From: Candidatus Planktophila sp.
Lineage (GTDB): Bacteria; Actinomycetota; Actinomycetes; Nanopelagicales; Nanopelagicaceae
Reading direction: 5' to 3'
Assembly (NCBI GenBank): GCA_030649935.1
Contig: JAUSFN010000005.1
Span: 1 to 45,913, forward strand
Length of the DNA: 45,913 bases
The notes under the pieces are model-generated. The model saw only the letters and a list, made by a program, of their open reading frames with translations. It was not told the origin of the DNA and did no database searches. Shown one piece after another: positions 1,708 through 45,913 of the stretch (positions are counted from its first letter, which is position 1; each line of letters starts with the position of its first letter). A program made the position numbers and the translations under genes.

Positions 1708-1977
1708 TTAGCGGCGAATACCGAGCTTTTCGATAATCGCACGGTAGCGATTGATATCTGTCTTTGCGAGATACTGAAGAATTCGACGGCGACGTCCAAC
1801 TAGTAACAAAAGGCCACGACGGTTGTGGTGGTCATGTGGGTTGGTCTTTAAGTGTGTGGTGATTTCTTCAATGCGCTTGGATAGCAAAGCGACCTGAGTT
1901 TCAGGACTTCCCGTATCAGTAGGAGTCGAGCCGTACTGTGCGACTATTGCCGATGTTACCTCTGGTGTTAGTGCCAT
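1708..1977 (-). CDS. rpsO: 30S ribosomal protein S15
   Basis: S15 is a primary 16S rRNA-binding protein that helps form the platform of the small subunit. The 89-residue product has normal family length and the diagnostic run [14 protein letters not shown] followed by the conserved [16 protein letters not shown] segment and a C-terminal IEKLGIRR. A clear AGGAGC site precedes the ATG. It lies directly upstream of pnp on the minus strand, the standard arrangement. Its normal upstream neighbour ribF is instead more than 11 kb away, separated by accessory genes. Confidence 0.98.
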
Positions 1978-2012
1978 GCGGTTGTGCTCCTATTTGTCTG
2001 ATGATTACGGAG

Positions 2013-2759: not shown

Positions 2760-3815
2760 TTAAAGCCGTACCTGCGTCTTTTCATCAAAGAGATGTGTCC
2801 GGTCTTTTCTAAACTTCACACCAACTTCTAAGCCCTCTTGGATAGAGCCCATATCGGAAGTATTCACAATCGCTGTCAGATGTTCGCTAGCTACCTGCAG
2901 AGTGACGATGGCTCGTGGCCCAAGTAGTTCAACAATTTCAATGGTTGCCATGAAATCAGCTTCCACTGCAGGCACAAGAAGAATTTCTTCAGGCCTGATT
3001 CCAAGTACCGTCTTTTTTGGACCAATATTTTTAACAATACTTTTAATGCCTGACTCCGACGTGAACAGGCCTCTATCGCATAATCCACTAATGAGATTCA
3101 TGCGTGGGCTACCTACAAATGAAGCCACGAAAGTGTCGTTTGGATATTCGTAGATATCTATTGGTGAGCCTTTTTGAAGAATCTTTCCATCTTTCATAAC
3201 AATCATTACATCAGAAAGTGTCATCGCTTCTTCCTGATCATGAGTGACATAAACAGTTGTTGTCTTTAATTGACGTTGCAAGCGAAGTAATTCAGTACGC
3301 ATTTCAACACGCAATTTTGCATCAAGATTTGAAAGAGGCTCATCGAAAAGAAAAACCTTTGGCGCTCTAGCAATAGCTCGGCCAATTGCAACACGTTGCT
3401 GTTGGCCACCAGAGAGTTCTTTTGGTTTGCGCTCAAGCAGGTGGCTGATGTTCAACATTTTTGCTACTTCTTGCAAGCGACCCTGAGCCTCTACACGCTT
3501 ACCACCTCTTGCAAGCAAAGGAAAAATGATATTTTCAGCAACGGTTAAGTGAGCATACAATGCATAATTCTGAAAAACCATCGAGATATCACGATCTTTC
3601 GGCTCTAGTGATGTCACGTCAAGCTTATCAATGCTGATAATTCCACTAGTTACATCTTCTAGCCCAGCAATCATGCGTAAAGTTGTTGTCTTTCCGCAAC
3701 CTGAAGGGCCGACAAGGACGGTGAATTTGCCATCCTCAAGCTCGAGATTGAGATCATCAACAGCAAGTACGTTGCCATACTTCTTGACAACTTTTTCGAA
3801 CGTTACCTTTGCCAT
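2760..3815 (-). CDS. Carbohydrate ABC transporter ATP-binding protein (MalK/UgpC/MsmK type)
   Basis: This is the ATPase that powers the two permeases encoded upstream. From the ATG at 3815 it is 351 residues: Walker A GPSGCGKTT at 36-44, Q-loop in VFQNYALY, signature ELSGGQQQRVAIGRAI near 133, Walker B VFLFDEP, and a switch histidine in VYVTHDQEEAMT. A C-terminal OB-like regulatory region from about residue 240 is typical of sugar-importer ATPases, which are often shared between importers. The reading frame is open to 3857, but AAGGAG just before the tandem ATGs at 3818/3815 decides the start. It is the last gene of the operon and its stop lies nine bases from the thiolase remnant. Confidence 0.93.
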   Translation of the reverse strand: MAKVTFEKVVKKYGNVLAVDDLNLELEDGKFTVLVGPSGCGKTTTLRMIAGLEDVTSGIISIDKLDVTSLEPKDRDISMVFQNYALYAHLTVAENIIFPLLARGGKRVEAQGRLQEVAKMLNISHLLERKPKELSGGQQQRVAIGRAIARAPKVFLFDEPLSNLDAKLRVEMRTELLRLQRQLKTTTVYVTHDQEEAMTLSDVMIVMKDGKILQKGSPIDIYEYPNDTFVASFVGSPRMNLISGLCDRGLFTSESGIKSIVKNIGPKKTVLGIRPEEILLVPAVEADFMATIEIVELLGPRAIVTLQVASEHLTAIVNTSDMGSIQEGLEVGVKFRKDRTHLFDEKTQVRL

Positions 3816-3825
3816 CATTATCTCC

Positions 3826-4644
3826 TTAGAATTTAACTGCTCCACCACTGATTCCACGAACCAGTCGACGTTGAATAAAGAAACTTGCTATTAGAACAGG
3901 CACTACAGAAACAAGAATGGCAGCACACATTGCGCCAAGCTCAACTCCTCTAAATGTATTAAAACCAGCAATCCGAACTGGAAGTGTTGCTGCATTACCC
4001 GGAGCAAGAATGAGCGCATAGAACAAGTCGTTCCATGAAAGCACAAAGCCAAAAATTGCTGCTGCACCCATACCTGGCGCCACTTGAGGGAGTACAACTT
4101 TACGAAATGCTGCAAAACGATCCAGTCCATCAACGAGGGCTTGTTCTTCGACTTCCTTGGGAGCTGCATCAAAGAACCCAATAAGAAACCAAGTTACGAC
4201 AGGAAGTACAAAACTCAAATGGGCTGCGATTACTGCGACAAGGGTGTCACTTAATCTAAGACGATAGGCTAAATCAAGAAATGGGAATACTAAAACTGCT
4301 GGAGGCAAAACCTGGGCTGCCAATATTCCAAATCGAGTGAGTGATTTACCTGTTTTATAGCGACTAATGGAATAAGCACCCATGCTTCCAAGCACAATAG
4401 AAATTGCAACAGTGATTACACCAACAAAAGCACTTCTGCCAGCAGATTGGAATATTCCAGAAGAGAAAACTTTTTTCCAATTCTCAGAGGTGGGAGTGAA
4501 GGTAACAAGTGTTGGATCATTAAGATCTGAACCTGTTTTAAATGATGCAAGAAGAACCCAAAGAAGTGGTGCAGCAACTATAATGAAGCTGAAAGTTATG
4601 ATTAGCTTGCTGAGTATTCCCCAGCTTGATTCTCTCTTTCTCAT
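3826..4644 (-). CDS. Carbohydrate ABC transporter permease (MalG/CUT1 type)
   Basis: This 272-residue integral membrane protein is one half of the importer pore. Hydrophobic segments are visible near residues 13-33, 73-97, 108-127, 138-157 and toward the C-terminus, giving six spans. The EAA loop that docks on the ATPase is EEQALVDGLDRFAAFRKVVL, with the conserved glycine. It overlaps the upstream permease gene by four bases (ATGA), indicating translational coupling. The short C-terminus after the last span is normal for MalG-type subunits. The substrate cannot be told from the permease itself. Confidence 0.93.
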   Translation of the reverse strand: MRKRESSWGILSKLIITFSFIIVAAPLLWVLLASFKTGSDLNDPTLVTFTPTSENWKKVFSSGIFQSAGRSAFVGVITVAISIVLGSMGAYSISRYKTGKSLTRFGILAAQVLPPAVLVFPFLDLAYRLRLSDTLVAVIAAHLSFVLPVVTWFLIGFFDAAPKEVEEQALVDGLDRFAAFRKVVLPQVAPGMGAAAIFGFVLSWNDLFYALILAPGNAATLPVRIAGFNTFRGVELGAMCAAILVSVVPVLIASFFIQRRLVRGISGGAVKF

Positions 4645-5492
4645 AATCTGCGTGTCTTCTCTATCTGCTTAAAGAGCACAACAACAATAATCATCACAAT
4701 AATTAATAACAGATAAGCCATAGCCGAAGCATTACCCAATCTGTAATACTGAATTCCAGTTTGGTATGTGAAGTATTGAATTGTTTGAGTTTCAATTCCT
4801 GGTCCACCACGCGTGGTGGCATAAACATATTCAAAAACTTTAAGTGCATCAAGACTGCGAATCAATATTGCAACAGTCAAAATTGGTGCAAGCATCGGAA
4901 TCGTAATCCGTCTAAATGTGTAGAAAGGCTTAGCCCCATCAACTCGTGCAGCTTCAAAAGGTTGCTTAGAAAGGCTTTCAAGCCCCGCTAATATTAATAA
5001 GACCATAAAAGGTGTCCACTGCCAAGTATCGATCATGATCATTGTGAAAAGAGCATTACCCGAACCAAAGAAATCGTATGAGAAACCAACTTTGTCAAGA
5101 ATTGTTGGAATAGCTCCTAGTTGTTGATTAAGAAGGAAACGAAACATTAATCCCACTGCGATTGGGGTGATAAACATTGGGCTCAACAAGAATGAGCGAG
5201 TGAAATCTCGGAATCTCTTCTGCCTTTGAAGTGAAAGTGCAATTGCAAGACCTAGCGAGAGTTCAAGAAAGACACCAATGACAACGAACAGTCCCGTCAC
5301 TTTCATGGCTGACCAGTAATCAGAGTTAGCAAATACATCTCTATATTGGTTTAACCCAACAAAATGGCTATCCCATCTCTGCGTAATTTTATAGCTGGTG
5401 AGTGATAAATAAAATGAGTAAAAAAGGGGGTATCCCACTGCAGCAACGAATGTTGCAATTAACGGCAAAATCATTCGAATGCGAAATGACAT
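4641..5492 (-). CDS. Carbohydrate ABC transporter permease (MalF/UgpA, CUT1 type)
   Basis: This 283-residue protein is the second pore subunit. It has an N-terminal span (LPLIATFVAAVGYPLFYSFY), the periplasm-facing loop with SHFVGLNQYRDVF typical of MalF/UgpA-like permeases, and the EAA loop FEAARVDGAKPFYTFRRITI. A strong AAGGAGG site lies just before the ATG. It follows the solute-binding lipoprotein gene after 34 bases and overlaps the next permease by four bases. The single-domain size without the large periplasmic insert of enteric MalF fits the CUT1 family of Gram-positive bacteria. Confidence 0.93.
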   Translation of the reverse strand: MSFRIRMILPLIATFVAAVGYPLFYSFYLSLTSYKITQRWDSHFVGLNQYRDVFANSDYWSAMKVTGLFVVIGVFLELSLGLAIALSLQRQKRFRDFTRSFLLSPMFITPIAVGLMFRFLLNQQLGAIPTILDKVGFSYDFFGSGNALFTMIMIDTWQWTPFMVLLILAGLESLSKQPFEAARVDGAKPFYTFRRITIPMLAPILTVAILIRSLDALKVFEYVYATTRGGPGIETQTIQYFTYQTGIQYYRLGNASAMAYLLLIIVMIIVVVLFKQIEKTRRL

Positions 5493-5526
5493 ACCCCCTC
5501 CTTTGTCTTACTAAATTAGATTCTTG

Positions 5527-6822
5527 CTATTTGCTTTGAATCTTATTTGCTTTAGTAGTTGCATCCCTCAAAGCTGCATCTACTGATTTCTTTCCAGCAA
5601 TTGCTGCATTAAGTTCAGTTCCGACTGCGTTGATCATTTCATCGCAGTTTGATCCCAAACACATTGGCTCTGAATTACCGAGAATCTTTGCAACAGTTGC
5701 GTAGTAATCAGCTCCGCCACCTGTATTTGATACTGCAGAATCTGAAAACACGCTTGTGCGAACAGGTGCACCACCTGCTGAAACGCGAGCAGTTTCTCCA
5801 GCCTTAGATGTCAACCATGAAATAAATGCCCATGCTGCATCAGATACTTTTGAGTTAGCAGGAATTGCCCAATCCCATGATCCAAGAACTTGCTTACCAC
5901 CAGGCATTGTTGCAAGCTTGAATTTGCCTGCAAGCGCTCCTGCTGAACCGCCAACCTTATTAAGTGTTGGAAGCATCCAGTTATAAGAAACCATCATTGC
6001 TGCCTTGTCGCTTGATACAGCACGAAGTGCTTCATCAAATGCCCAGTTCAAGCTGTTCTTAGGAGCGCTTGACTTGAACATTGCGATATAAGTTTCAAGA
6101 GCTTTCTTAGCTTCTGGTGTGCTGAGATTTACTTTGCCATCAGAACCGTAAACAGATCCTCCTGCTGCAAATAGGTAATTACCCCATTCTTCGAATGCTT
6201 TATAACCACGCTGTGGTTGCATTGCAATACCTGATCGTAATCCTGAGTTGAGTTTCTTTGCAGCTGCTTCCAAATCATCTAGTGATGCAGGCTCTGAAAG
6301 TCTAGCTTCGGTAAATAAATCTGTGCGATAGATCAGCCCAAGACCATAGTTATAGAACGGAATACCATAAATCTTTCCATCTACTTCACCAATTGAACGA
6401 AGAGGAGCAGAGAAATCTTCGTAGTCATATCCTTCTGTTGAGTTAACCAAGTCATCAAGTGGCTTTAGAAAACCAGCTCGAGCAAAATCCCCTACCCAAG
6501 GGTTATCGATAATTGCTATGTCATATGTTGGCTTTGATGCTTGGAACGATGCTACGAGCTTGTCACGAATTTGATCGTAAGCAATTGGCTCGATTTGGAC
6601 ATCAATCTTTGGAAAATCTTTATTGAAATCAGCAAGAAGTCCCTTGACGATATCTGTATCAGGAACGCCTTCCATAAGTACTCGCAGGGTTCCTGCTGTA
6701 TCAGCAGAAATCTTTCCCGAGCCTGAACTTGAAGATGAACTGCCACCGCACGCGGTAATAATTCCCATTATTAATACAACGCCTGCAGCCAAGAGACTGC
6801 GACGTATACCGGTTTTTCTCAT
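5527..6822 (-). CDS. Carbohydrate ABC transporter substrate-binding lipoprotein
   Basis: The 431-residue product starts MRKTGIRRSLLAAGVVLIMG and has the lipobox IITAC, so it is exported, lipid-modified on Cys25 and tethered to the outer face of the membrane. A Ser/Gly linker follows. The mature part is an extracellular solute-binding protein of the sugar family, with NPWVGDFARAGFLKPLDDL and the DEALRAVSSDKAAMMVSYNW region seen in family 1 binding proteins. The ORF is open to 6852, but AAAGGAG eight bases before the ATG at 6822 and the proper signal peptide fix the start. It is the first transport gene after the dehydrogenase, with a perfect palindrome in the gap. Confidence 0.93.
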   Translation of the reverse strand: MRKTGIRRSLLAAGVVLIMGIITACGGSSSSSSGSGKISADTAGTLRVLMEGVPDTDIVKGLLADFNKDFPKIDVQIEPIAYDQIRDKLVASFQASKPTYDIAIIDNPWVGDFARAGFLKPLDDLVNSTEGYDYEDFSAPLRSIGEVDGKIYGIPFYNYGLGLIYRTDLFTEARLSEPASLDDLEAAAKKLNSGLRSGIAMQPQRGYKAFEEWGNYLFAAGGSVYGSDGKVNLSTPEAKKALETYIAMFKSSAPKNSLNWAFDEALRAVSSDKAAMMVSYNWMLPTLNKVGGSAGALAGKFKLATMPGGKQVLGSWDWAIPANSKVSDAAWAFISWLTSKAGETARVSAGGAPVRTSVFSDSAVSNTGGGADYYATVAKILGNSEPMCLGSNCDEMINAVGTELNAAIAGKKSVDAALRDATTKANKIQSK

Positions 6823-6848
6823 GCTTTCTCCTTTTGTTGGGCTACTTG

Positions 6849-6864
6849 GCAACCAATTGGTTGC
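6849..6864 (-). promoter_or_regulatory. Perfect 16-base palindrome between dehydrogenase and binding-protein genes
   Basis: GCAACCAATTGGTTGC is a perfect inverted repeat that touches the stop codon of the dehydrogenase gene and ends about 26 bases before the binding-protein ATG. As DNA it could be an operator for a dimeric regulator. As RNA it folds into a six-pair stem with an AATT loop, which could raise binding-protein mRNA levels relative to upstream genes by blocking exonucleases, a common arrangement in ABC operons. The sequence does not separate these options. Confidence 0.4.
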
Positions 6865-7631
6865 TAATCCATAAAGGCGCCGCCATTTATGGCAAGTGCC
6901 TCCCCAGTTACAAAGCCAGCTTCATCAGAAGCTAAAAATGCAACCACCTTTGCAACATCCTCCGGTTGTTCCAAACGACCAAGAGGTGTGTCAGCGATCC
7001 ATAGATTGCGGACTGCGTCAGCGCTTACACCTCGTAGCTCTGCCTCCCATGCAAGTTCACGAACCTGCATGGGTGTTGCGACATAACCGGGACAGACGCT
7101 ATTTACACGAATGCCATGTGGTGCAAGTTCAAATGCCATCGCCTGCGTCAGACCGACTACGCCAAATTTACTTGCGACGTAATCAGAGAGATATGGCACT
7201 TTTCCCTGCTTTCCAGCCATTGATGCGATATTTATTATGACCCCATCTCGATTACCGAGCTGGATCATTTCCTTTGCTGCAGCCTGTCCAGCAAAGAAAA
7301 CCCCCTTTAGATTTACATCCATTGTGAAATCAAAAATTTCTTCTGTTATCTCAGTAAATGGCAGCATCTTTGAAACACCTGCATTAGAAACCCACAGATC
7401 AAGGCGACCATGTTTCTTTGAAACTGCGCTTGCAACCGCAGAAGAATCGAATAAAGTCGTGACATCTAATTTCATTGCTTCAGCAAACTTAAGCTCGGAG
7501 GCGATCGTTTCAGCTGCTGACAAATTCAGATCAGTGACAACTACGTGATAGCCAATTGCACTTAACTTGCGTGCAATAGCGGCACCAATTCCGGAACCCC
7601 CACCAGTTACTACTGCCACTTTTACATTCAT
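6864..7631 (-). CDS. Short-chain dehydrogenase/reductase, probable sugar or polyol dehydrogenase
   Basis: A classical SDR of 255 residues that should oxidise or reduce a sugar, polyol or sugar acid with NAD(H) or NADP(H). The cofactor motif TGGGSGIG is at 9-16, an acidic residue at the end of strand 2 (VVVTDLN, D34) suggests preference for NAD, the structural motif SNAG is at 82-85, and the catalytic set N107, S137, Y151, K155 is complete. The C-terminus (GEALAINGGAFMD) is that of the FabG-like group. The start overlaps the stop of the upstream kinase gene by four bases (ATGA). The operon context implies a role on the imported carbohydrate. Confidence 0.92.
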   Translation of the reverse strand: MNVKVAVVTGGGSGIGAAIARKLSAIGYHVVVTDLNLSAAETIASELKFAEAMKLDVTTLFDSSAVASAVSKKHGRLDLWVSNAGVSKMLPFTEITEEIFDFTMDVNLKGVFFAGQAAAKEMIQLGNRDGVIINIASMAGKQGKVPYLSDYVASKFGVVGLTQAMAFELAPHGIRVNSVCPGYVATPMQVRELAWEAELRGVSADAVRNLWIADTPLGRLEQPEDVAKVVAFLASDEAGFVTGEALAINGGAFMD

Positions 7632-9121
7632 CGTTGACTCCTTGCTATTGAGTGTGAGATTGGATCGATACTGGGTTTAAGTTGAAGATACTGCTGATAA
7701 CGCTCTTCATAAATAGTTTTTTTATCGCTACTAGGGGTAATGGTCTCACCTGGTTCTAAATACCCTTCCACGAAAGACCAATTAGAAATCACTCCGCTAC
7801 CAATACCTGCAATTACCGCGGCAGCAAAGGAAGCGCCAGGATGATTGATAACCGACAACAAATCTTTTTGAAGTACATCTGAAAGTATTTGTCGCCAAAG
7901 GCGAGATTTAGAGCCCCCATTTGTGACACGTGTTTTTTTCATAGGCACATTAAGGCTGGTAAAAATATCTGAATGCTGCTTAAATCCATATGCAATAGAT
8001 TCCAAGAATGATCTATGAATATCTCCATTTGTTGTTCCAAGATGTAGCCCAACTATGGCCCCACGTAGTTCTGGATCATGGTGCGGAGATTTTTCACCTA
8101 AGAAATATGGAAGTGTTAACAAATTTCCCGGACGAGCATCTTGTGCCTGAGCATCAAGTTTTTCTAGATCATTCTCTTTGAAAATACTCTGCTCCCAGCG
8201 AAGAAGAGAGCCACTTGTTGCCATGCATCCATTTGGTAGCCATTTATGTGGAACTGGATGAGCATCTAAATAGAGTTGCTTGTTAAGCACCTTCGTATCG
8301 CTGACAACCAAGATATCCCCAGCACCTCCAAGCTTTATGAGCGCATCACCGGAATTAATTAGCCCTGCGCCATATGCTGAAAGCACATGATCAGCGCCTC
8401 CAACAATAATTTTTGTGCCGGATGCCAGCCCTATTTCTTTGGCTTTATCTGGCGAAATTTCTCCAATGACTTCCCCGGATGCTCGCGGAGATAGAAGTTT
8501 TGGCCAGGTAACTCCTGTTGCATTGATGACTACATCCAGTGGCGTGCCATCCCAGTTGTAAAGCCCACTTTCAATTGCCCAATTTTTCTCAACGTGTGGC
8601 TCGGCTCCTAGTGACATTGCAGCCCAGTCATATGAGCCCACTATGAATTGGGTAAGGGCAAGTACTTCGGATTCGTATTTAGAAATCCATCGAACAGTTG
8701 GTGCGACTGATTGTTGTGTAAGGGCAGAGCCTGTAAGTTGAAGTAAGTCAATGCCATTTATCTTGCTATCAATCTCAGCTATCTCAACAACAGCTCGTGC
8801 ATCATTTTGCAGGATTGCTCTGCGCAAGGGTTTTCTATTTGAATCAAGAAAGAGAACAGCAGGAACCATTCCTGAGAATGAAATGGCAGAAATATCACTG
8901 GAGCTGATGTCTTCAAGCGAGAGCAACTCTGAAATTATTTCTTTAAGCCCGGTCCACCATTGTCCAGGGTCAGCTTCTGCAAAACCTGGCTTATCAGAGA
9001 AAAGCTCAACCGGATAACTTGCTGTTCCAAGAATTCCCTTATCCGGATCAAGCAGCAAGCCTTTTAGCCCAGAAGAACCAATATCGATTCCCAGGCAAAG
9101 TGATGCTGACTTTTTATGCAC
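7628..9121 (-). CDS. FGGY-family carbohydrate kinase (xylulokinase-like)
   Basis: A 497-residue kinase predicted to phosphorylate the imported sugar or polyol with ATP. It has the N-terminal phosphate-binding motif GIDIGSSGLKG at 11-21, SFSGMVP, the catalytic aspartate in GGADH (D244), and the FGGY C-terminal domain with FLESIAYGFKQH and TNGGSKSRLWRQ. The frame is open to 9223, but those 34 extra residues lie inside the BtpA gene and are not kinase-like. A GTG at 9119-9121, overlapping the BtpA stop by eight bases and followed by HKKSASLCLGID, is the likely start. Xylulokinase is the closest impression, but FGGY substrates are not safely read from motifs. Confidence 0.9.
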   Translation of the reverse strand: MHKKSASLCLGIDIGSSGLKGLLLDPDKGILGTASYPVELFSDKPGFAEADPGQWWTGLKEIISELLSLEDISSSDISAISFSGMVPAVLFLDSNRKPLRRAILQNDARAVVEIAEIDSKINGIDLLQLTGSALTQQSVAPTVRWISKYESEVLALTQFIVGSYDWAAMSLGAEPHVEKNWAIESGLYNWDGTPLDVVINATGVTWPKLLSPRASGEVIGEISPDKAKEIGLASGTKIIVGGADHVLSAYGAGLINSGDALIKLGGAGDILVVSDTKVLNKQLYLDAHPVPHKWLPNGCMATSGSLLRWEQSIFKENDLEKLDAQAQDARPGNLLTLPYFLGEKSPHHDPELRGAIVGLHLGTTNGDIHRSFLESIAYGFKQHSDIFTSLNVPMKKTRVTNGGSKSRLWRQILSDVLQKDLLSVINHPGASFAAAVIAGIGSGVISNWSFVEGYLEPGETITPSSDKKTIYEERYQQYLQLKPSIDPISHSIARSQR

Positions 9122-9917
9122 TTCGAGCAGCCTCAATAAAACGCTTAACGCGCTCTGGTTCAACTTCATTCCATGTGTATCCATCGCGCTTAAGGTCACT
9201 TCCAACAATGCATCCATTCGCATGTTTTAGATATTTTGCAATAGTTCCTGCTTTTGCTCCAGTATTTAAAAGAACAGGAATATCACTTGGCACTGCATCT
9301 CGCACATCCGCAACAGTGCTCACATCAGGCTCGCTTCCTGCCATAGGTCCTGAAACAAGAATTACATCTGCAAGGCTTGAAACAACTGTTGACTTTGCCA
9401 TTTGGGCAGCTGTGCGTGTGCCAATATTTGATGCAAACTCAGGTGTGATATTTGCAAAGATTCCAAGATCTTCTCTGCCAAATGCACGGCGATCTCTTAG
9501 TAGTTTAGCCGCATCCGGACTCCATGGACCCATATCTGACTCCCATGTTCCATTGATAACTTCACGCATAAAGTAGGCATCTGTTGCTACAGCAATTGCC
9601 ATTGCGCATTGAGCATCCCAGAGGAAATCAACGCCATATGGGCGATCACTTGGCTTGCATTCAGTAACAACTCTTGCCATTACTGCAGATGCCTCAAGAC
9701 CTGCATGTAATTGATATGGACGATCGCCTTCATTGCAGAAAAGAATCGCATCAAAACCAGCTTCTAGAAGTAGCTCCGTGTCCCTCTTAACGTGATCGAT
9801 CAGACCTTGAACACCTTTTGATGCATCAAAGAGCGGAGTACCAGGTAGTGGAGGAACATGAGCCATAGCAATGAGTGGTTTATTCACATTAGGAAAAATG
9901 GTTTTGAAACGTGACAT
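9114..9917 (-). CDS. BtpA/SgcQ family TIM-barrel protein
   Basis: This 267-residue protein belongs to the BtpA family: N-terminal KPLIAMAHVPPLPGTPLFD, central GFDAILFCNEGDRPYQ, PYGVDFLWDAQCAMAIA, and the C-terminal phosphate-site-like NGCIVGSDLKRDG. The family was named for a cyanobacterial factor affecting photosystem I, but it includes SgcQ, encoded in an enterobacterial sugar-phosphotransferase operon; its biochemical activity is not established to my knowledge. Here it sits between a DeoR regulator and a sugar kinase, with a one-base overlap to deoR (TAATG) and eight bases to the kinase, which points to a carbohydrate step, perhaps an aldolase- or epimerase-like reaction. That role is inference. 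Confidence 0.85.
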   Translation of the reverse strand: MSRFKTIFPNVNKPLIAMAHVPPLPGTPLFDASKGVQGLIDHVKRDTELLLEAGFDAILFCNEGDRPYQLHAGLEASAVMARVVTECKPSDRPYGVDFLWDAQCAMAIAVATDAYFMREVINGTWESDMGPWSPDAAKLLRDRRAFGREDLGIFANITPEFASNIGTRTAAQMAKSTVVSSLADVILVSGPMAGSEPDVSTVADVRDAVPSDIPVLLNTGAKAGTIAKYLKHANGCIVGSDLKRDGYTWNEVEPERVKRFIEAARSA

Positions 9918-10702
9918 TATTTTGACTCCTTATACATCGGTTCTACGTGGATAACCTCAACACCAACATCTTGAAGTGACTTAATTAATTTATTACTTGG
10001 TGAAGCATTTGTTACTAACACATCTACCTTGCTTATATCTGCAACGTTTGCAAAAGCGATTTTCCCAATTTTGCTTGCATCAGCCAGAACAACACATCTA
10101 TGCGCTGCGCGAATCGCAGATTGCTTAACTCTTGTGTCATCGAGGTTGTATTCGGTGAGGCCTTTTTCTAGGTTTATTCCTGCAACTCCAAGAAATACAA
10201 CATCGCAATTCAAATCTGAGAAGGAATCTTCGGCTCGAGCCCCGATTAAACTCATCTCACCTGTTCTGATAATTCCCCCAGAGACAATTGTTCGGATCTG
10301 TGGACGGTGAGAAAGCTCGGCTGCAATCAAGATAGAACTAGTGACAATTGTCAGAGATAACCTGGGATTTATGGCTTTGGCCATTTCAAGAGTGGTAGTA
10401 CCGACATCGATAATTGCGGTCTCACCATCTTTTAACAGATCCGCAGCTGCTTTACCGATTGCAGTCTTTGCAATCTGCTCAACGCCCTGTCGTTGAATGA
10501 TTGGGGGTTCATATGAACGGCTAATAGCCGATATCGCTCCACCTCGAACTCGGCGAGCATGTCCTTCTAATTCAAGAATCTCAAGGTCTCTTCGAATGGT
10601 CATCTCTGAGATGCCGAACTCTTGGGCTAGTTCACCGATCCTGGCTTCCCCTTGATTTGCAAGGCGAGTCAAAATTGCCACTCTGCGAAACTCTGAACTC
10701 AT
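9917..10702 (-). CDS. DeoR-family transcriptional regulator of the carbohydrate operon
   Basis: A 261-residue regulator with an N-terminal winged helix (RIGELAQEFGISEMTIRRDL, about residues 20-39) carrying the DeoR signature, and a C-terminal DeoRC sugar-phosphate sensor domain with DVGTTTLEMA, TSSILIAAEL and FLGVAGINLEKGLT. Such proteins usually repress catabolic operons and release DNA on binding a phosphorylated intermediate. It is the first gene of the eight-gene minus-strand operon, so it probably controls its own transcription. A 27-base imperfect palindrome lies 44 bases upstream of its start. A weak TTGTTT-17-TACCTT promoter would give an almost leaderless mRNA. Confidence 0.93.
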   Translation of the reverse strand: MSSEFRRVAILTRLANQGEARIGELAQEFGISEMTIRRDLEILELEGHARRVRGGAISAISRSYEPPIIQRQGVEQIAKTAIGKAAADLLKDGETAIIDVGTTTLEMAKAINPRLSLTIVTSSILIAAELSHRPQIRTIVSGGIIRTGEMSLIGARAEDSFSDLNCDVVFLGVAGINLEKGLTEYNLDDTRVKQSAIRAAHRCVVLADASKIGKIAFANVADISKVDVLVTNASPSNKLIKSLQDVGVEVIHVEPMYKESK

Positions 10703-10745
10703 GTATCAGAAGGTATCCCTAAACTTCACAAAAAACAACAGAATT

Positions 10746-10772
10746 ATGTAAATGTTTATCAAACTTTCACAT
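10746..10772. promoter_or_regulatory. 27-base imperfect palindrome, candidate DeoR operator
   Basis: Reading the minus strand, the pattern is ATGT.AA.GTTT...AAAC.TT.ACAT, with 20 of 27 positions symmetrical. It lies 44-70 bases upstream of the deoR start, exactly where an autoregulatory site would be expected, and its other edge is within ten bases of the first recognisable base of the RNase P RNA on the plus strand, so the same site could influence transcription in both directions. Assignment to this DeoR protein is inferred from position and symmetry. Confidence 0.5.
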
Positions 10773-10780
10773 TATTGGTA

Positions 10781-11082
10781 TGAGGCAGTTTGCCCACCCG
10801 GAGCAATCCGCGGGATTAGTGCAACAGAAAACAGACCGCCTTTTAGCAATAAAAGGTAAGGGTGAAACGGCGGTGTAAGAGACCACCAGTAACTGCAGCA
10901 ATGTAGTTAGCTATGTAAACCCCACTTGGAGCAAGACCATGCAGTTGGCGTTTGAGAGCTGCTCGCTCGAGTCAACGGGTAGGTTGCTTGAATCTGTAAG
11001 TAATTACAGATCTAGATGGATGGTGATCCGTTTTCGCTGCGAAAGTAACGAGAACGACAGGATCCGGCTTATAGGGCGACTC
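10781..11082 (+). ncRNA. rnpB: RNase P RNA (type A, actinobacterial style), apparently lacking its 5' part
   Basis: RNase P RNA matures tRNA 5' ends. Recognisable blocks are GTGCAACAGAAAACAGACCG, the P12 stem CCTTTTA-GCAA-TAAAAGG (10839-10856), GTAAGGGTGAAACGG, GTGTAAGAGACCACCAG, the tRNA 3'-end binding loop around CCCCACTTGGAGCAAGACC, the P18 stem ATCTGTAA-GTAA-TTACAGAT, CTAGATGGATG, a P19 stem CGTTTTCG/CGAGAACG, and the 3' end CAGGATCCGGCTTATAG. The universally conserved 5' core GAGGAAAGTCC with P1-P3 and the 5' strand of P4 should precede these, but similarity ends near 10781 and the upstream bases hold the DeoR palindrome instead. Expected length is about 400 nt and only about 300 are present. 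It may be a pseudogene, a split gene or an assembly junction. Confidence 0.82.
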
Positions 11083-11115
11083 TTCTTTAATTTTCCAAAG
11101 CTCTTAAAATCAAAC

Positions 11116-11178
11116 TTAACGCTTCAAAATTAGCGCATCTCCTTGGCCACCGCCGCCACAGAGCGCTGCAACCCCGTA
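11116..11178 (-). repeat. Right copy of a degenerate direct repeat (thiolase 3' end)
   Basis: These 63 bases form the 3' end of the intact thiolase gene and match 2689-2751 in the same orientation, with 6 differences in the first 57 bases and loss of similarity after that. The two copies bracket the sugar operon and the RNase P RNA piece, about 8.4 kb. Confidence 0.8.
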
Positions 11179-12294
11179 CCCGCTCCCCTTTTTCTTAAGT
11201 TCAAGCGCGATATGTAAAGCCAGTCTGGCCCCTGACATACCAAGCGGATGTCCAACTGCAATGGCACCTCCGTGAGTGTTTACTGCGGAAAGGTCGAGGC
11301 CTAACGCGTTCGATGAGGCAATTCCAATGGCCGCAAATGCTTCATTAATTTCAATAAAATCAAATTGCTCTATCCCTATCCCTTCTTTTCTTGCCGCCTC
11401 TTTAATTGCATTTGAAGGCTGCTCCTGAAGCGAGGCATCTGGTCCGGCTACCATCCCCTGCGCACCAATTTCGCAGAGCCAATCGATTCCTAGTTCGATG
11501 GCTTTTTCCTTCGACATTACAACAACTGCTGCTGCGCCATCTGAAATCTGCGAAGACGACCCTGCAGTGATAGTTCCCCCATGCGAAAAAACTGGTTTGA
11601 GTGCTGCCAGTGTTTCCAGCGAAACCTCTGGACGCACTCCCTCATCGGCCGAGAAAAGCGTGATATTTCCCTTTCGATCAATGATCTCTACTGGAACTAT
11701 TTCATCAATAAAGGCGCCCTCGGATTGAGCCTTCGCGGCGCGAAAATGAGATTGATAAGCAAATTCATCTTGCATTTCACGGGTCAATTTATATCGTGAA
11801 TTATATTTCTCAGTGGCCTCACCCACGCCCATTTGATCGATACTACAAAAAAGCCCATCAAAGATCATTGAATCATTCAAAATGGCATCACCAAGTTTGA
11901 AGCCTGCACGGGAGTTCATTAATAAATGCGGTGCATTGCTCATTGATTCCATGCCACCTGCAACAATCACGTCATGCTCGTTTGCACGAATGAGTTGATC
12001 GGCCAGCGCAATTGCATTTAATCCAGAGAGGCAGAGCTTATTAATTACTATTGAAGGAACATCCAAAGGTATGCCGGCTTTTATCGCCGCTTGGCGTGCT
12101 GGACCCTGTCCCGCTCCTGCCTGTAGTACCTGACCCATAATCAGATATTGAACTTGATTTGGTGCGATACCTGCGCGCTCTATCGCAGCTTTAATTGCCA
12201 ATCCACCCAAGTCGGTTGCGCTTAGGTTCTTTAACGCACCATTAAATCGGCCAACCGGAGTCCGTGCGCCAGCCACGATTACTGAAGTTTTCAT
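11116..12294 (-). CDS. Acetyl-CoA C-acyltransferase (thiolase)
   Basis: A 392-residue thiolase that condenses two acetyl-CoA or cleaves 3-ketoacyl-CoA. The active-site nucleophile is C88 in [11 protein letters not shown]; the second set is complete, with NEAFAA, H349 in [16 protein letters not shown], and C379 in [11 protein letters not shown]. Length and motifs fit the acetoacetyl-CoA thiolase (AtoB/PhaA) group, though degradative FadA activity cannot be excluded. It stands alone, ending 33 bases from the RNase P RNA 3' end (convergent). Its last 20 codons are echoed by a decayed copy at 2689-2751. A perfect CGAACCGGTTCG palindrome lies 30 bases upstream of the ATG. Confidence 0.95.
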
Positions 12295-12323: not shown

Positions 12324-12335
12324 CGAACCGGTTCG
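12324..12335. promoter_or_regulatory. Perfect 12-base palindrome upstream of the thiolase
   Basis: CGAACCGGTTCG is fully symmetrical and lies 30 bases upstream of the thiolase ATG and 91 bases upstream of the divergent antitoxin gene. AACCGGTT-centred sites are used by several TetR-type regulators of lipid metabolism in actinobacteria, so it is a candidate operator for the thiolase promoter. There is no regulator gene next to it in this window. Confidence 0.3.
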
Positions 12336-12425
12336 TAGTATTTTTGGTAAGAACGCTCTCGGATCGTCTAACACGCACCCGCTAGCAGGTTGTAATGCAT
12401 CACTTAATGTGGCACTATATGAAGC

Positions 12426-12749
12426 ATGGCAACAAGAATTACATCCCCTGTGCAACGCCGTACTTCGTTACCCCTGACGGAACGAAATGAGAGTGACATT
12501 TCAATTCTTCTTGAGTCCTCTGCCTATCAACGTGCGCTTGAAGAATTAAGTGGGACGAAGATCATTGACCAAGAGGTGAGTACTTCCGCACTTTTGCATG
12601 CGGTATTCGAAGCCGGAATGTCTGCAGTAAAAAGATCAGCGGAAATGGAAGGGTACTCACAAATCGCTGCAGGAATTTCAAAGGCTGACCTCCAACAACA
12701 ACGAATTGACGCGCGTCGCCGCCGTCCATCTTGGTCAGCTGAGGAATGA
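12426..12749 (+). CDS. Putative antitoxin of a MazEF/PemIK-type module
   Basis: A 107-residue protein encoded immediately upstream of a PemK/MazF toxin and overlapping it by four bases (ATGA), the usual antitoxin-first order. The N-terminal half (about residues 1-60) is likely a small dimerisation and DNA-binding region; the C-terminal tail ADLQQQRIDARRRRPSWSAEE is strongly charged and probably disordered until it wraps the toxin, as in other MazE-like antitoxins. I do not recognise a specific AbrB or RHH signature, so the family is assigned by partner. It diverges from the thiolase gene across 131 bases. Confidence 0.7.
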   Translation: MATRITSPVQRRTSLPLTERNESDISILLESSAYQRALEELSGTKIIDQEVSTSALLHAVFEAGMSAVKRSAEMEGYSQIAAGISKADLQQQRIDARRRRPSWSAEE

Positions 12750-13072
12750 ACTCTCCTTGGCCACTACTTCGTGGCAGAGTGTACGCAGCAAAATTATCTA
12801 ACATTAAAAGTGAAAAGTATTTTGTTATCGTTTCAAACAATCAACGCAATTCCACACTTCCACAAGTACTCGCAGTGAGACTTACAACTTCGCCAAAGCC
12901 AAGAATCCCCAGCATCGTCGAATTGGGCAAAGGGGAAGTATTTCTCGGTCGAGCTGTCTGTGATGACATCGTTGAACTGTATGAAGATGAAATCCTGCGA
13001 GACCTTGGTGCTCTAAGCCCAGTCGCTATGTCAAATCTGGGTGCAGGATTGAAGGCAGCGCTTTCAATCTAA
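12746..13072 (+). CDS. PemK/MazF-family mRNA interferase toxin
   Basis: A 108-residue toxin of the MazF/PemK fold that would cleave mRNA at short sequences. Matching features are the N-terminal RGRVYAAKLS (the GDI/GEV strand of the family, slightly changed), KYFVIVSNNQRN, LAVRLTTSP, and GEVFLGRAVCDDIVEL, which corresponds to the conserved S/T-X-V-x-C-D-Q-strand region. Length is normal. Its ATG lies within the antitoxin stop (ATGA), and its TAA overlaps the stop codon of the convergent HicB gene by three bases. Toxicity and cleavage specificity are not visible from sequence. Confidence 0.82.
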   Translation: MNSPWPLLRGRVYAAKLSNIKSEKYFVIVSNNQRNSTLPQVLAVRLTTSPKPRIPSIVELGKGEVFLGRAVCDDIVELYEDEILRDLGALSPVAMSNLGAGLKAALSI

Positions 13073-13281
13073 TTCTCTTCGATGAATTCGTATTCGATAT
13101 CAAAGCATTTCGGATGGATTTCAAACCAAAATGCAATTGCTTCGCGTGTCATTTCTTCTACCGTATGTCGAGAGAGAGCCTGGCTAAAAAGCCCGCTTAT
13201 TTCAGGAACAGATATTGCCCAATAATCACCAGACTTCTGAACACGTGCCTTGTATAAAGTCTTAATCATCTGATCCACCAT
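13069..13281 (-). CDS. hicB: HicB-family antitoxin (short form)
   Basis: A 70-residue protein with the HicB partial RNase H-like fold: strand-forming YKARVQKSGDYWAISVPEIS, then GLFSQALSRHTVEEMTREAIAFWFE. It lacks a C-terminal HTH/RHH domain found in longer HicB proteins. HicB neutralises HicA. Two starts are possible: the ATG at 13281 has a good GGGAG site, while the ATG at 13269 gives a four-base ATGA overlap with hicA and a more typical N-terminus (MIKTLYKARVQK). The order hicA then hicB is canonical. Its stop overlaps that of the MazF-type gene on the other strand. Confidence 0.85.
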   Translation of the reverse strand: MVDQMIKTLYKARVQKSGDYWAISVPEISGLFSQALSRHTVEEMTREAIAFWFEIHPKCFDIEYEFIEEN

Positions 13282-13481
13282 TTCACTCCCAACTCACTCT
13301 CTAAGTGTTTCATAATCGCCTTTGCTGTCAACCCATCGATGTCACGGTGTCTCGGAATTTGAACGGCAATGTCACGGAGCGTAAATATGGAATGGTTGCC
13401 ACCCTCGCGAACCAATACCCAGGGTAATCCAGCCTCAATCGCTGCCCGAGAAATCATCCTTAAAAGGTCTACGCGTTTCAT
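13266..13481 (-). CDS. hicA: HicA-family mRNA interferase toxin
   Basis: A 71-residue double-stranded RNA-binding-fold toxin. It shows the family pattern MKRVDLLRMISRAAIEAGLP followed by the active-site histidine in EGGNHSIFTL and the conserved VQIPRHRDIDGLTAKAIMKH segment. HicA binds and cleaves mRNA; the catalytic histidine is present, so it looks active. It is slightly longer than the shortest HicA proteins but within the normal range. It is the first gene of the minus-strand pair. The 140 bases between it and ribF show no other gene. Confidence 0.9.
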   Translation of the reverse strand: MKRVDLLRMISRAAIEAGLPWVLVREGGNHSIFTLRDIAVQIPRHRDIDGLTAKAIMKHLESELGVKWWIR

Positions 13482-13621
13482 TGCTCAATTACAGATGTAC
13501 TACCTGACAGAAATTTGCAAGAGAAAAATTCGTGTGGACAAGATCTTCAGTAAAAAAATAAAGACCTTGATTTCGCTTTGTTTCCGCAAATTCAAAAAGC
13601 GATATAAATCAATAGTTAAAT

Positions 13622-14494
13622 TTAAAGCACCGTTAGTTCGCGGGCTTTAGAGCAATCTTTTGCCATTTGTACAAGTAGTGGTTCAAGGCCATCGAATTTG
13701 AGGGTATCTCGAAGGCGCCAACCAAATTCAATCGTCGCCGCTTTTGTATAGAGATCCAATCCAACTTGATCCAATGCATATGCCTCAACCTGTCGCCCGC
13801 GCGCTCCCTCAAAAGTGGGATTAGTGCCAATTGAGATAGCTGCGGGCCATCGATCGATTCCAACGGTTAACCAACCGGCATAGACGCCATCGGCTGGAAT
13901 TGTTTGGTGTTCAAGATCGCCCAGATTTGCCGTCGGATATCCAATCTCTCGGCCGCGCTTTTCACCGTGGACCACAATTCCATCTAAGCGGTGTGGGCGA
14001 GTTAGAAGATCGCGAGCTTTTTCAACATTTCCTTCAACGATGAGTTTTCTGATGCGAGTAGAAGAGACAACTTCCCCATCATCTGGAGCCAAATCTAAAA
14101 CGACAGTCTCAAACTCCGTATGGGCTTTCAAAGTTTCAATATTTCCGGCAGCTTTGTGTCCGTAAGTAAAATTTTTACCGACAACAACCTTGGTTGCATG
14201 TAACTGCTGAACTAGGATTTTATTAACGAAATCCTCTGGAACCATGGCGGCAAACTCTGGTGTGAATTTCATGACTGCAACTTGATCGGCTTTGTGAATC
14301 TTAAGAAGTTCAATCCGATCGGTAAGTATTGTTAATAGAGTGGGTGCCCGCTCTGGTGCAAAAACACTGACTGGATGCGGATCAAAAGTAAGAGCAATTA
14401 TTTTTTCATCTCCTGCAATTGCTTTAGCGCGATTGAGCACATCTTGATGTCCTTTATGGACTCCGTCGAATACTCCGATTACGACAACGCTCAT
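13622..14494 (-). CDS. ribF: Bifunctional riboflavin kinase / FMN adenylyltransferase
   Basis: RibF phosphorylates riboflavin to FMN and adenylates FMN to FAD. The 290-residue product has the nucleotidyltransferase motif IGVFDGVHKGHQ at 6-17 and the SSTRIRKLI motif near 140, followed from about residue 165 by the riboflavin kinase domain with GREIGYPTANL and the ATP/riboflavin site GVYAGWL. The usual N-terminal leader of about 15 residues before the first strand is absent, making it a little short. It follows truB after 18 bases, the standard actinobacterial pairing, and is the last backbone gene before the large accessory block. Confidence 0.95.
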   Translation of the reverse strand: MSVVVIGVFDGVHKGHQDVLNRAKAIAGDEKIIALTFDPHPVSVFAPERAPTLLTILTDRIELLKIHKADQVAVMKFTPEFAAMVPEDFVNKILVQQLHATKVVVGKNFTYGHKAAGNIETLKAHTEFETVVLDLAPDDGEVVSSTRIRKLIVEGNVEKARDLLTRPHRLDGIVVHGEKRGREIGYPTANLGDLEHQTIPADGVYAGWLTVGIDRWPAAISIGTNPTFEGARGRQVEAYALDQVGLDLYTKAATIEFGWRLRDTLKFDGLEPLLVQMAKDCSKARELTVL

Positions 14495-44103: not shown

Positions 44104-44394
44104 ATGAGCGGGCGTATGGCATTTCTCAAGGAAAATAGTGAAGCTATAAAGGCTATTGCCGCGCGCCATAAAGGGTTAAAGATTGCTGTATTTGGCAGTG
44201 TCGCACGAGGCGAAGATACAGAGATAAGCGACATTGATTTTCTCGTGACTTTTGATAAAGAAGTATCCGTGCTCGACTGGTTACTTCTGAATGAAGAACT
44301 TGAGCAATTTTTGAAAATCCCTGTAGATGTAGTCTCATTTAAAGGTTTAAAATCTCGAGATACGCGAATTCTCCAAGAAGCCGTTCTGCTTTGA
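44104..44394 (+). CDS. mntA: MntA-type minimal nucleotidyltransferase antitoxin
   Basis: A 96-residue nucleotidyltransferase-fold protein with the motif VFGSVARGEDTEISDIDFLV: G31-S32, then the catalytic aspartates D43 and D45. In characterised MntA-HepT modules this antitoxin AMPylates the toxin to inactivate it. Typical length and C-terminus (IPVDVVSFKGLKSRDTRILQEAV). The gene diverges from rpsB and overlaps its toxin gene by four bases (TTGA). Confidence 0.9.
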   Translation: MSGRMAFLKENSEAIKAIAARHKGLKIAVFGSVARGEDTEISDIDFLVTFDKEVSVLDWLLLNEELEQFLKIPVDVVSFKGLKSRDTRILQEAVLL

Positions 44395-44717
44395 GTAGAT
44401 CTGACGAGGAAAGAATTCAGGACATTCTCGAAATATCGATTTCTTTACTCAAACTTGTCAACCAAGGTCAAGAGTTTTTCCTAGAGGATATTACTCATCA
44501 ATGGCCTGTTGAAAGAGCACTGCAAAATATCGGGGAAGCGTGCACAAAAATATCTGATGAAGTGAAAGCAAAATATCCAGATGTAGATTGGAAGTCAATA
44601 TTAGGGATGCGAACATACCTGGCTCATGCCTATCACCGTATTGATTCGGATATTGTTTGGCGGGCGGCCAGTGTAAGCGTTCCGGCACTAGTTAATGCCT
44701 TAGAGCATAATTCATGA
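44391..44717 (+). CDS. hepT: HepT-type HEPN ribonuclease toxin
   Basis: A 108-residue all-helical HEPN protein (DUF86). The active-site motif R-X4-H-X-Y is complete: R74, H79 and Y81 in MRTYLAHAYHRI, so it should be a functional metal-independent RNase, with Y81 as the AMPylation target. The N-terminal helix EERIQDILEISISLL and RALQNIGEACTKIS are family features. The likely start is TTG at 44391, inside the mntA stop, giving coupled translation. It converges on the glycosyltransferase gene; the 44-base gap holds no clear terminator. Confidence 0.9.
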   Translation: MSRSDEERIQDILEISISLLKLVNQGQEFFLEDITHQWPVERALQNIGEACTKISDEVKAKYPDVDWKSILGMRTYLAHAYHRIDSDIVWRAASVSVPALVNALEHNS

Positions 44718-44761: not shown

Positions 44762-45454
44762 TTACCGGCCAATGAGGCGCAAAAACCCCCATGCTGTGAT
44801 TCGCACAATGGCCTCGAAGGCGATGGCAAAGGACATCTTACTGACCCCATGTGCCCGCTCAATAAAGGTGATCGGGATTTCCCCAACAGTTGCCCCTCGG
44901 GCCAAGGCGCGACGAGTCATTTCAATTTGGAAGCAGTAGCCCTCACTCTTAATGCTTGCAATATCCATCCGCTGCAAAAGTTCCACATCATAGATTCGAA
45001 AACCCGACGTCACGTCTTTGATACCCAAGGATAAAAGGAGGTTGGCATAAGCGTTTGCCCCTCTAGATAGATATTCGCGGAACTTGCTCCAGTTTTCGAT
45101 TCCACCATCGGCCACCCAGCGCGAACCAATGAGTAGTTGGTTGCTACCTATCCACTCCATCATCGTTACCAAATCACTGACTTGGTGGGATCCATCGGCA
45201 TCCATTTGAATAATATTTTTGTAACCACGCTCTAAAGCGATGGTAAAACCAGTCCTGTAAGCGCTACCTAACCCCAACTTTGATGCTCGAGAGATAACTT
45301 CCACACCGTGGGCGATGCATGTGAGCGCTGTCCCATCGGGTGAACCATCATCGATTATCAAAACATCGACAGGCAGTTTTTTTAATGAATGCAGGAGGGC
45401 TCCGATACTCTCACGCTCGTTATAAGTAGGTATAACTACTATTGACGTATTCAT
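44762..45454 (-). CDS. Polyprenol-phosphate mannosyl/glycosyltransferase, DPM1-like (GT2)
   Basis: A 230-residue GT-A enzyme that likely transfers mannose or another sugar from a nucleotide donor to polyprenyl phosphate at the inner face of the membrane. [16 protein letters not shown] at 6-21, [10 protein letters not shown] (D35, D36), the metal-binding [10 protein letters not shown] and [14 protein letters not shown] are typical of DPM1/Ppm1 catalytic domains. There is no C-terminal membrane domain, unlike DPM synthases of some archaea, so it is the soluble or peripheral form. Its ATG overlaps the xerC stop by four bases. Confidence 0.91.
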
Positions 45455-45913
45455 GCGCGCGGATGCGCATTCTTAAATACTTTATGCAGACGTTGCGTTG
45501 AAACATGAGTGTAAATCTGAGTTGTTGCTAGGGATGCATGCCCCAAGATTTCCTGCACCGTACGCAAATCAGCTCCACCTTCGAGCAGATGGGTAGCGGC
45601 AGAGTGACGCAGTCCGTGCGGGCCCATACGTTCAATTCCCTCAATCGCACTTAGCGCTTCATACACAACGCTACGCACTGTGCGCTGATCTATGCGACCT
45701 CCGCGGGCACCAAGAAAAACCGCTTTGGCAGATAACTCAGTTGTTAAATCTTCCCGACCCTTAGACAACCAAACCTCCAATGCATTGACTGCCGGTTTTC
45801 CCATTGGAATCGTGCGCTCCTTATTGCCCTTACCTAATACGCGAATCGTGTTTCGACTAAAGTCAATATCTTCTATATCTAAACCACAGAGTTCACTTAC
45901 CCGTGCACCTGTG
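45451..45913 (-). CDS. xerC: Tyrosine recombinase XerC/XerD type, C-terminal catalytic part
   Basis: The open frame continues through the right edge, so the N-terminal SAM-like domain is outside the window and 154 residues are seen. The catalytic residues present are R in [16 protein letters not shown] in [12 protein letters not shown]2-R in [15 protein letters not shown] in [12 protein letters not shown] and the nucleophilic tyrosine in that run. These enzymes resolve chromosome dimers at dif. The location upstream of rpsB matches xerC of other actinobacteria; the name rests on that synteny. Confidence 0.88.

Follow-up and report, generated by a model that had tools for sequence, protein, structure and literature searches.

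Introduction

Genomic islands that use the 3' end of an RNA gene as their target are known from Dehalococcoides, where a 20-bp 3' end of ssrA (the tmRNA gene) is reported to be repeated in tandem, with integration modules in sixteen of the islands (PMC3146451). These tandem ssrA islands are the closest described system to the arrays of rnpB 3' ends reported here. In both, an essential RNA gene present in one copy is the target, tandem repeats of its 3' end (20 bp in ssrA, about 23 in rnpB) follow downstream, the intact gene is found at one end and the cargo varies between strains; integration genes lie beside some of the ssrA repeats and appear to do so beside some of the rnpB repeats. The systems differ in the target, which is rnpB here, in the associated enzyme, which is a tyrosine recombinase and not the serine recombinase of Dehalococcoides, in the length of many rnpB cassettes (only 0.3-2.5 kb) and in the additional occurrence of long (100-300 nt) rnpB ends, two of them at other loci. 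A second parallel is offered by tRNA-gene islands, where, as described for Islander, the target is restored and a displaced fragment marks the island boundary. Our case differs from these in its target, rnpB, and in that the fragment described below lies on a different contig from the intact gene. Integron cassette arrays consist of short cassettes in one orientation, contain mixed accessory genes and change at their anchored end. The rnpB arrays share all of these traits; unlike in integrons, their repeats are copies of a gene end and their integrases score far below the cut-offs for integron integrases.

The literature searched, which covered part of the matching papers, yielded no description of rnpB being used for integration. 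The retrieved passages treat rnpB as a phylogenetic marker (PMC2705793, PMC2516327) or deal with its promoter (PMC8776855), and in the retrieved text of PMC3541175 rnpB stands only in the title of a cited work.

Here we analysed the whole of contig C27 (45,913 nt, hereafter the window) from a Candidatus Planktophila genome of 1.82 Mb in 42 contigs, with 99.95% completeness and 0.29% contamination. The explanation that we consider likely is that the window carries a non-functional rnpB 3' fragment, which was displaced from the rnpB locus by mobile-island traffic and which lies at the right edge of a sugar operon that was acquired horizontally and now sits in the gap between ribF and rpsO. Taken alone, this fragment is an ordinary by-product of island traffic. 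The interesting part is the rnpB-anchored array. The tail end of rnpB appears to be a docking site for mobile gene cassettes, and following up the fragment points to rnpB as a target of repeated integration in freshwater bacteria that are very abundant and have small genomes.

A 5'-truncated rnpB in the window

The first-pass annotation of the window had reported an RNase P RNA without its 5' catalytic core, and at the level of sequence this observation of a 5'-truncated rnpB was confirmed: a covariance search with RF00010 found a class A RNase P RNA gene, of which DNA comparison places the last 295 nt at positions 10792-11086 of the plus strand, without the 5' strands of P1-P4 and without the GAGGAAAGUCC block. 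The RF00010 match itself (186.1 bits) extends from 10665 to 11087, and its nominal model span of 1-367 is an artefact of end-to-end alignment, because its 5' part was laid onto the start of a DeoR gene and onto intergenic DNA, with a stretch of 82 bases left unaligned. Homology to the intact rnpB of the same genome begins at 10792 (GCCCACCCGGAGC), ends at about 11086 and corresponds to rnpB nucleotides 77-357; the homology proposed earlier to start at 10781 is real, with its true start 11 nt further in. The missing 5' part was not found in the window: GAGGAAAGTCCGGACTCC had no match with up to three mismatches allowed, and when the first 90 nt of rnpB were used in a sensitive search, the matches were the 14 nt that overlap the start of the fragment and four stretches of 10-12 nt (E 0.18 or worse). 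The conserved 5' block and both strands of P4, which a functional class A RNase P RNA requires, are absent from the window and present in the intact copy on contig C24.

What is left of the gene is well preserved. The RF00010 alignment contains the conserved S-domain and 3' blocks of class A RNase P RNA, and the non-standard S-domain pairs flagged in the fragment are, by eye, the same ones as in the intact copy, which agrees with the little decay that had been ascribed to its conserved stems. With helices so little decayed, recent function and recent origin are not distinguishable. A DeoR-type palindrome had also been placed near the junction; an imperfect inverted repeat is indeed there (10760-10772 and 10780-10792, 77%), its identity as a DeoR operator being unsupported. 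On the other side, the 20 nt 3' of the fragment resemble the sequence flanking the intact C24 gene, a stretch too short to weigh, and positions 11086-11116 used as a query had no match among the loci examined. The final 23 nt of the rnpB fragment, TCCGGCTTATAGGGCGACTCTTC (11063-11085, plus strand), are identical to the cassette-array repeat of the genus and occur once in the window within three mismatches.

The fragment and the intact rnpB of the genome are identical at 290 of 314 positions when gaps and 18 nt beyond the gene end are counted, and at 273 of 281 gap-free columns (97.2%). They differ mainly in the P19 hairpin, which is longer in the fragment; an extended P19 is also present in the intact rnpB genes of two other loci (L257 and L236). 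At six of the eight substituted positions the base of the fragment is found in at least 13 of 71 full-length rnpB rows, the fragment itself being one of the 71. Judged from these differences, the fragment in the ribF-rpsO gap is a different rnpB allele, one with an extended P19 hairpin. A 97.2% identity could also be expected of a decayed tandem or segmental duplicate of the genome's own rnpB, unrelated to islands. We hold this to be very improbable, as the differences are mostly bases of other rnpBs, the extended P19 is that of other intact genes and of a fragment in the sister genome G139, and the fragment is located inside an insert with direct repeats.

Other rnpB copies in the genome

A search of the whole genome with the type A RNase P model, which had been suggested as a check, revealed three places: the intact, full-length gene at C24:50554-50911 on the minus strand (309.4 bits), the fragment in the window (186.1 bits) and a second 3' fragment of 154 nt at C24:49743-49896 (67.2 bits), near the intact gene. 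A nucleotidyltransferase-fold gene and a HepT-like gene lie between the two places on C24. A separate 5' piece was found in the genome neither by covariance search nor by DNA search, and the notion of an RNA expressed in two pieces, in which the fragment is a 3' piece that pairs with a separately made 5' piece, is thus unsupported. The nearly undamaged S-domain and 3' helices speak for such an arrangement; with a full rnpB at 309.4 bits, no 5' piece in the genome and no 5' block in the window, we regard it as exceedingly improbable. The recombination that had been offered as an alternative fared better in that an operon and a cut rnpB end were gained while an intact rnpB is present elsewhere; the idea that the genome's own rnpB was cut in place did not hold. 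The fragment is probably the cut-off, dead back half of an rnpB, and most likely it has no function of its own.

A second nucleotidyltransferase/HepT-like pair, by eye similar to the one beside rnpB on C24, is located beyond rpsB in the window (44120-44717, plus strand).

The ribF-rpsO locus and its insert

The core gene order at this locus is truB-ribF-rpsO-pnp. In 15 of the 16 relatives examined with tblastn, the rpsO match begins 120-146 nt past the end of the ribF match (one of the compared loci, in G115, is cut by a contig end within rpsO and another, in G056, within pnp). The sixteenth, G139, has only a thiolase gene between ribF and rpsO, and this gene ends 3 bp away from the flank on the side of rpsO. 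The corresponding gap in the window spans 11.6 kb. From rpsO (1709-1978, minus strand, pnp beyond it) towards ribF (13622-14494, minus strand), it contains a small insert (2094-2686) with an ORF at 2126-2503 that has no Pfam match, a copy of the thiolase 3' end (2687-2745), the sugar-uptake operon (2760-10702, minus strand), the rnpB fragment, the intact thiolase gene (11116-12294, minus strand) and a further insert beside ribF (12335-13617), where a small ORF (12426-12749, plus strand) precedes a PemK/MazF-like gene (12746-13072, plus strand). An Actino-pnp RNA (RF01688, 55.5 bits) lies upstream of pnp at 1610-1679 on the minus strand, as expected for an actinobacterium.

The operon and the rnpB fragment are thus enclosed by two copies of the thiolase 3' end, which form 59-nt direct repeats that are 90% identical: the left one (2687-2745) is the displaced end, and the right one (11114-11172) is part of the intact gene. 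The thiolase protein is 95.7% identical to that at the same locus in G139; as a core gene of the genus it was rejected, since full-length matches in 19 genomes, G139 not among them, are at most 34% identical. The boundaries of the insert are therefore thiolase ends and not an intact rnpB with a displaced end, the intact rnpB being on C24. The insert contains no integrase and a single copy of the repeat, and rnpB is not on its contig, so that site-specific entry of this piece is without support.

The same locus bears on the possibility of an assembly artefact, namely a chimeric join inside rnpB, where the contigs of this group often break. Many rnpB matches in relatives are indeed partial and located at contig ends. 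However, the right side (thiolase, ribF and truB) and the left side (rpsO and pnp) are the flanks of one locus, so that an artefact would require no fewer than two wrong joins; completeness and contamination are 99.95% and 0.29%, and an analogous ectopic rnpB 3' fragment is found inside a 406-kb contig of G139. An artefact is, in our estimation, quite unlikely.

According to Pfam, the sugar-uptake operon encodes an ABC ATPase, two permeases, a solute-binding protein, an SDR protein, an FGGY kinase, a BtpA-like protein and the DeoR regulator. Matches to the latter are present in 18 of 100 other genomes of the genus and are 28-36% identical, and the G+C content of the operon is 43.4%, that of the core flanks 47-48%. 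A stretch in PowLak16_MAG21 that includes BtpA and DeoR genes is 70% identical to positions 9039-10609 of the window. The same contig contains an exact rnpB-type core (2484-2503), a second core recognized by eye and two tRNA matches, one of which was read as tRNA-Tyr. A plasmid source was set aside, the seven plasmid records obtained covering 12-24% of the query.

Longer rnpB 3' ends and the sister genome

Among the matches listed, the longer rnpB 3' ends that do not adjoin a contig end number at least five: the 295-nt fragment in the window, the 154-nt fragment on C24, and fragments of 145 nt in G139:C15, 177 nt in G139:C40 and 101 nt in G052:C6. Only fragments away from contig ends were counted; matches in G010, G158, G126 and G165 were checked against contig ends, and those in G116:C121 and G038:C30 start at base 1. 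Partial rnpB matches at contig ends are numerous in the genomes of the genus, and rnpB therefore seems to be a place where assemblies from this group commonly break.

The fragment in G139:C15 has an extended P19 like that of the window fragment and sits at the boundary to older cassettes common to both genomes; it may represent a former rnpB end of this lineage, displaced when a new end entered. The fragment in G139:C40, the one inside the 406-kb contig, is ectopic and lies at the end of a transport operon (a sugar-type binding protein, an ABC ATPase, a permease and an SDR protein) in an island at tRNA-Tyr. The equivalent locus of our genome, on C25, resumes at the last base of this fragment and holds tRNA-Tyr and a partial copy of it. 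In the latter locus (C25:17617-18928, L363) the tRNA gene and its partial copy are about 1.2 kb apart and form a small island.

In both sister genomes a transport operon ends at a 3' fragment of rnpB, and the two operons are different; this raises the question of whether such an end is useful to the island, either as homology for RecA-mediated re-entry at rnpB or as an RNA element for the neighboring operon. The 154-nt fragment on C24 would fit a single crossover within rnpB. On the other hand, there are only two ectopic cases and their orientation differs, the fragment being beside the start of DeoR in the window and after the last gene in G139, and no terminator-like site was found at 10600-11200 of the window. 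We consider a use of this kind unlikely.

Arrays of the rnpB 3' end

Downstream of rnpB, in this genome and in its relatives, small cassettes are separated by head-to-tail copies of the last 23 nt of the gene. The array on C24 has six copies within five mismatches, that of rnpB included, on one strand and at spacings of 512-2389 nt. Altogether, 56 copies were counted in 16 stretches (300 kb) that were chosen for holding rnpB or repeats. Eleven of the 56 are the end of rnpB itself, and each stretch has its copies in one orientation. As controls, the reversed pattern gave one copy, and 97 loci around other genes (339 kb, up to four mismatches) gave none. In G039 and G051 the repeat is present only within rnpB itself in the 20 kb examined. 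Both the array on C24 and those of the relatives consist of tandem direct repeats of the target 3' end in one orientation and have an intact target at one end. Intact rnpB is present in 11 of the 16 stretches and absent from the other five. In a scan of a genome collection, a 20-nt form of the repeat was found in at least 119 stretches, many of them in acI/Nanopelagicales records. As to a viral source, which was set aside, the 20-mer had no exact match in a viral collection.

The cassettes on C24 contain mixed genes, with AHSA1, DUF2200, GNAT, HTH_3, DUF1801, Ble-like, F420-oxidoreductase and MarR among the Pfam matches and one of the ten scanned genes without a match. Older cassettes, which begin at a repeat, are common to C24 and G139:C15 (92.5%), whereas the segment adjoining rnpB is not the same (about 6 kb on C24 and 1.4 kb in G139:C15), and we infer from this that the array changes at its rnpB end. 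In several cassettes (L004, L074-L084) a TATACT-like hexamer was seen by eye just 3' of the repeat, with an ATG soon after it; such cassettes look as if each had its own promoter and a leaderless start.

The associated integrase subfamily

A 305-aa phage-type integrase encoded in G055:C45 has three close relatives (in G112, G049 and G055:C12, 42-45% identity) among 135 genomes of the genus. For three of these four, the repeat core (at most two mismatches) lies about 40-130 nt from the integrase match; the G112 locus has no core. The integrase genes of G049 and G112 share a contig with rnpB and lie 3.9 and 5.6 kb downstream of it, respectively. Near ten other integrases (24-31% identity), in loci some of which are cut by contig ends, the core was found in none. 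Three array integrases were scanned: they contain PF14659 and PF00589, and their TIGR02249 scores of 45.7-52.2, far below the cut-off of 265, place them outside the IntI-type integrases.

None of the four integrase matches in our own genome is a close member of this subfamily, and the array on C24 may therefore have lost its enzyme or used one in trans. Two 14-kb stretches around the integrases of C35 and C4 contained no rnpB core at up to six mismatches. An integrase at the right end of the window was set aside as an island enzyme: this tyrosine recombinase (45451-45912, minus strand, cut by the contig end) lies beyond rpsB and, from gene order, we take it to be most likely the host XerC.

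Proposed origin of the fragment and a possible cassette platform

The displacement that we favor may be pictured as follows. An integrase would recombine at the rnpB 3' end, and the incoming DNA would supply a new 3' end, so that rnpB is restored and the old end is left behind. A second process is needed for the fragment in the window because its 295 nt greatly exceed the 23-nt core: an exchange further inside rnpB, for example by homologous recombination, could produce ends of 100-300 nt. The fragment would be such a longer end, which came along when the operon was transferred into the ribF-rpsO gap as a second locus, and this transfer would have left the thiolase 3' end in two copies.

A broader proposal, which we put forward tentatively and which may well prove wrong, is that, in lake actinobacteria with streamlined genomes, the rnpB 3' end serves as the permanent anchor point of a cassette platform similar to an integron. 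Small cassettes would enter beside rnpB by means of a phage-type integrase acting partly in trans, older cassettes would be pushed outward, and longer rnpB ends would travel with islands into other loci and provide homology for their return. If the arrays are active, they offer a defined site and an enzyme for the exchange of transport, stress and toxin-antitoxin genes. They also explain an annotation trap, namely several rnpB-like matches per genome and contigs that break inside rnpB.

Finally, acI-type rnpB repeats are carried by records titled Bifidobacterium breve (L230, L241, L242 and others), which are probably mislabelled lake MAGs, and other repeat-bearing records, named Streptomycetaceae, Phycisphaerae and so on, were taken for mislabelled or mixed bins.
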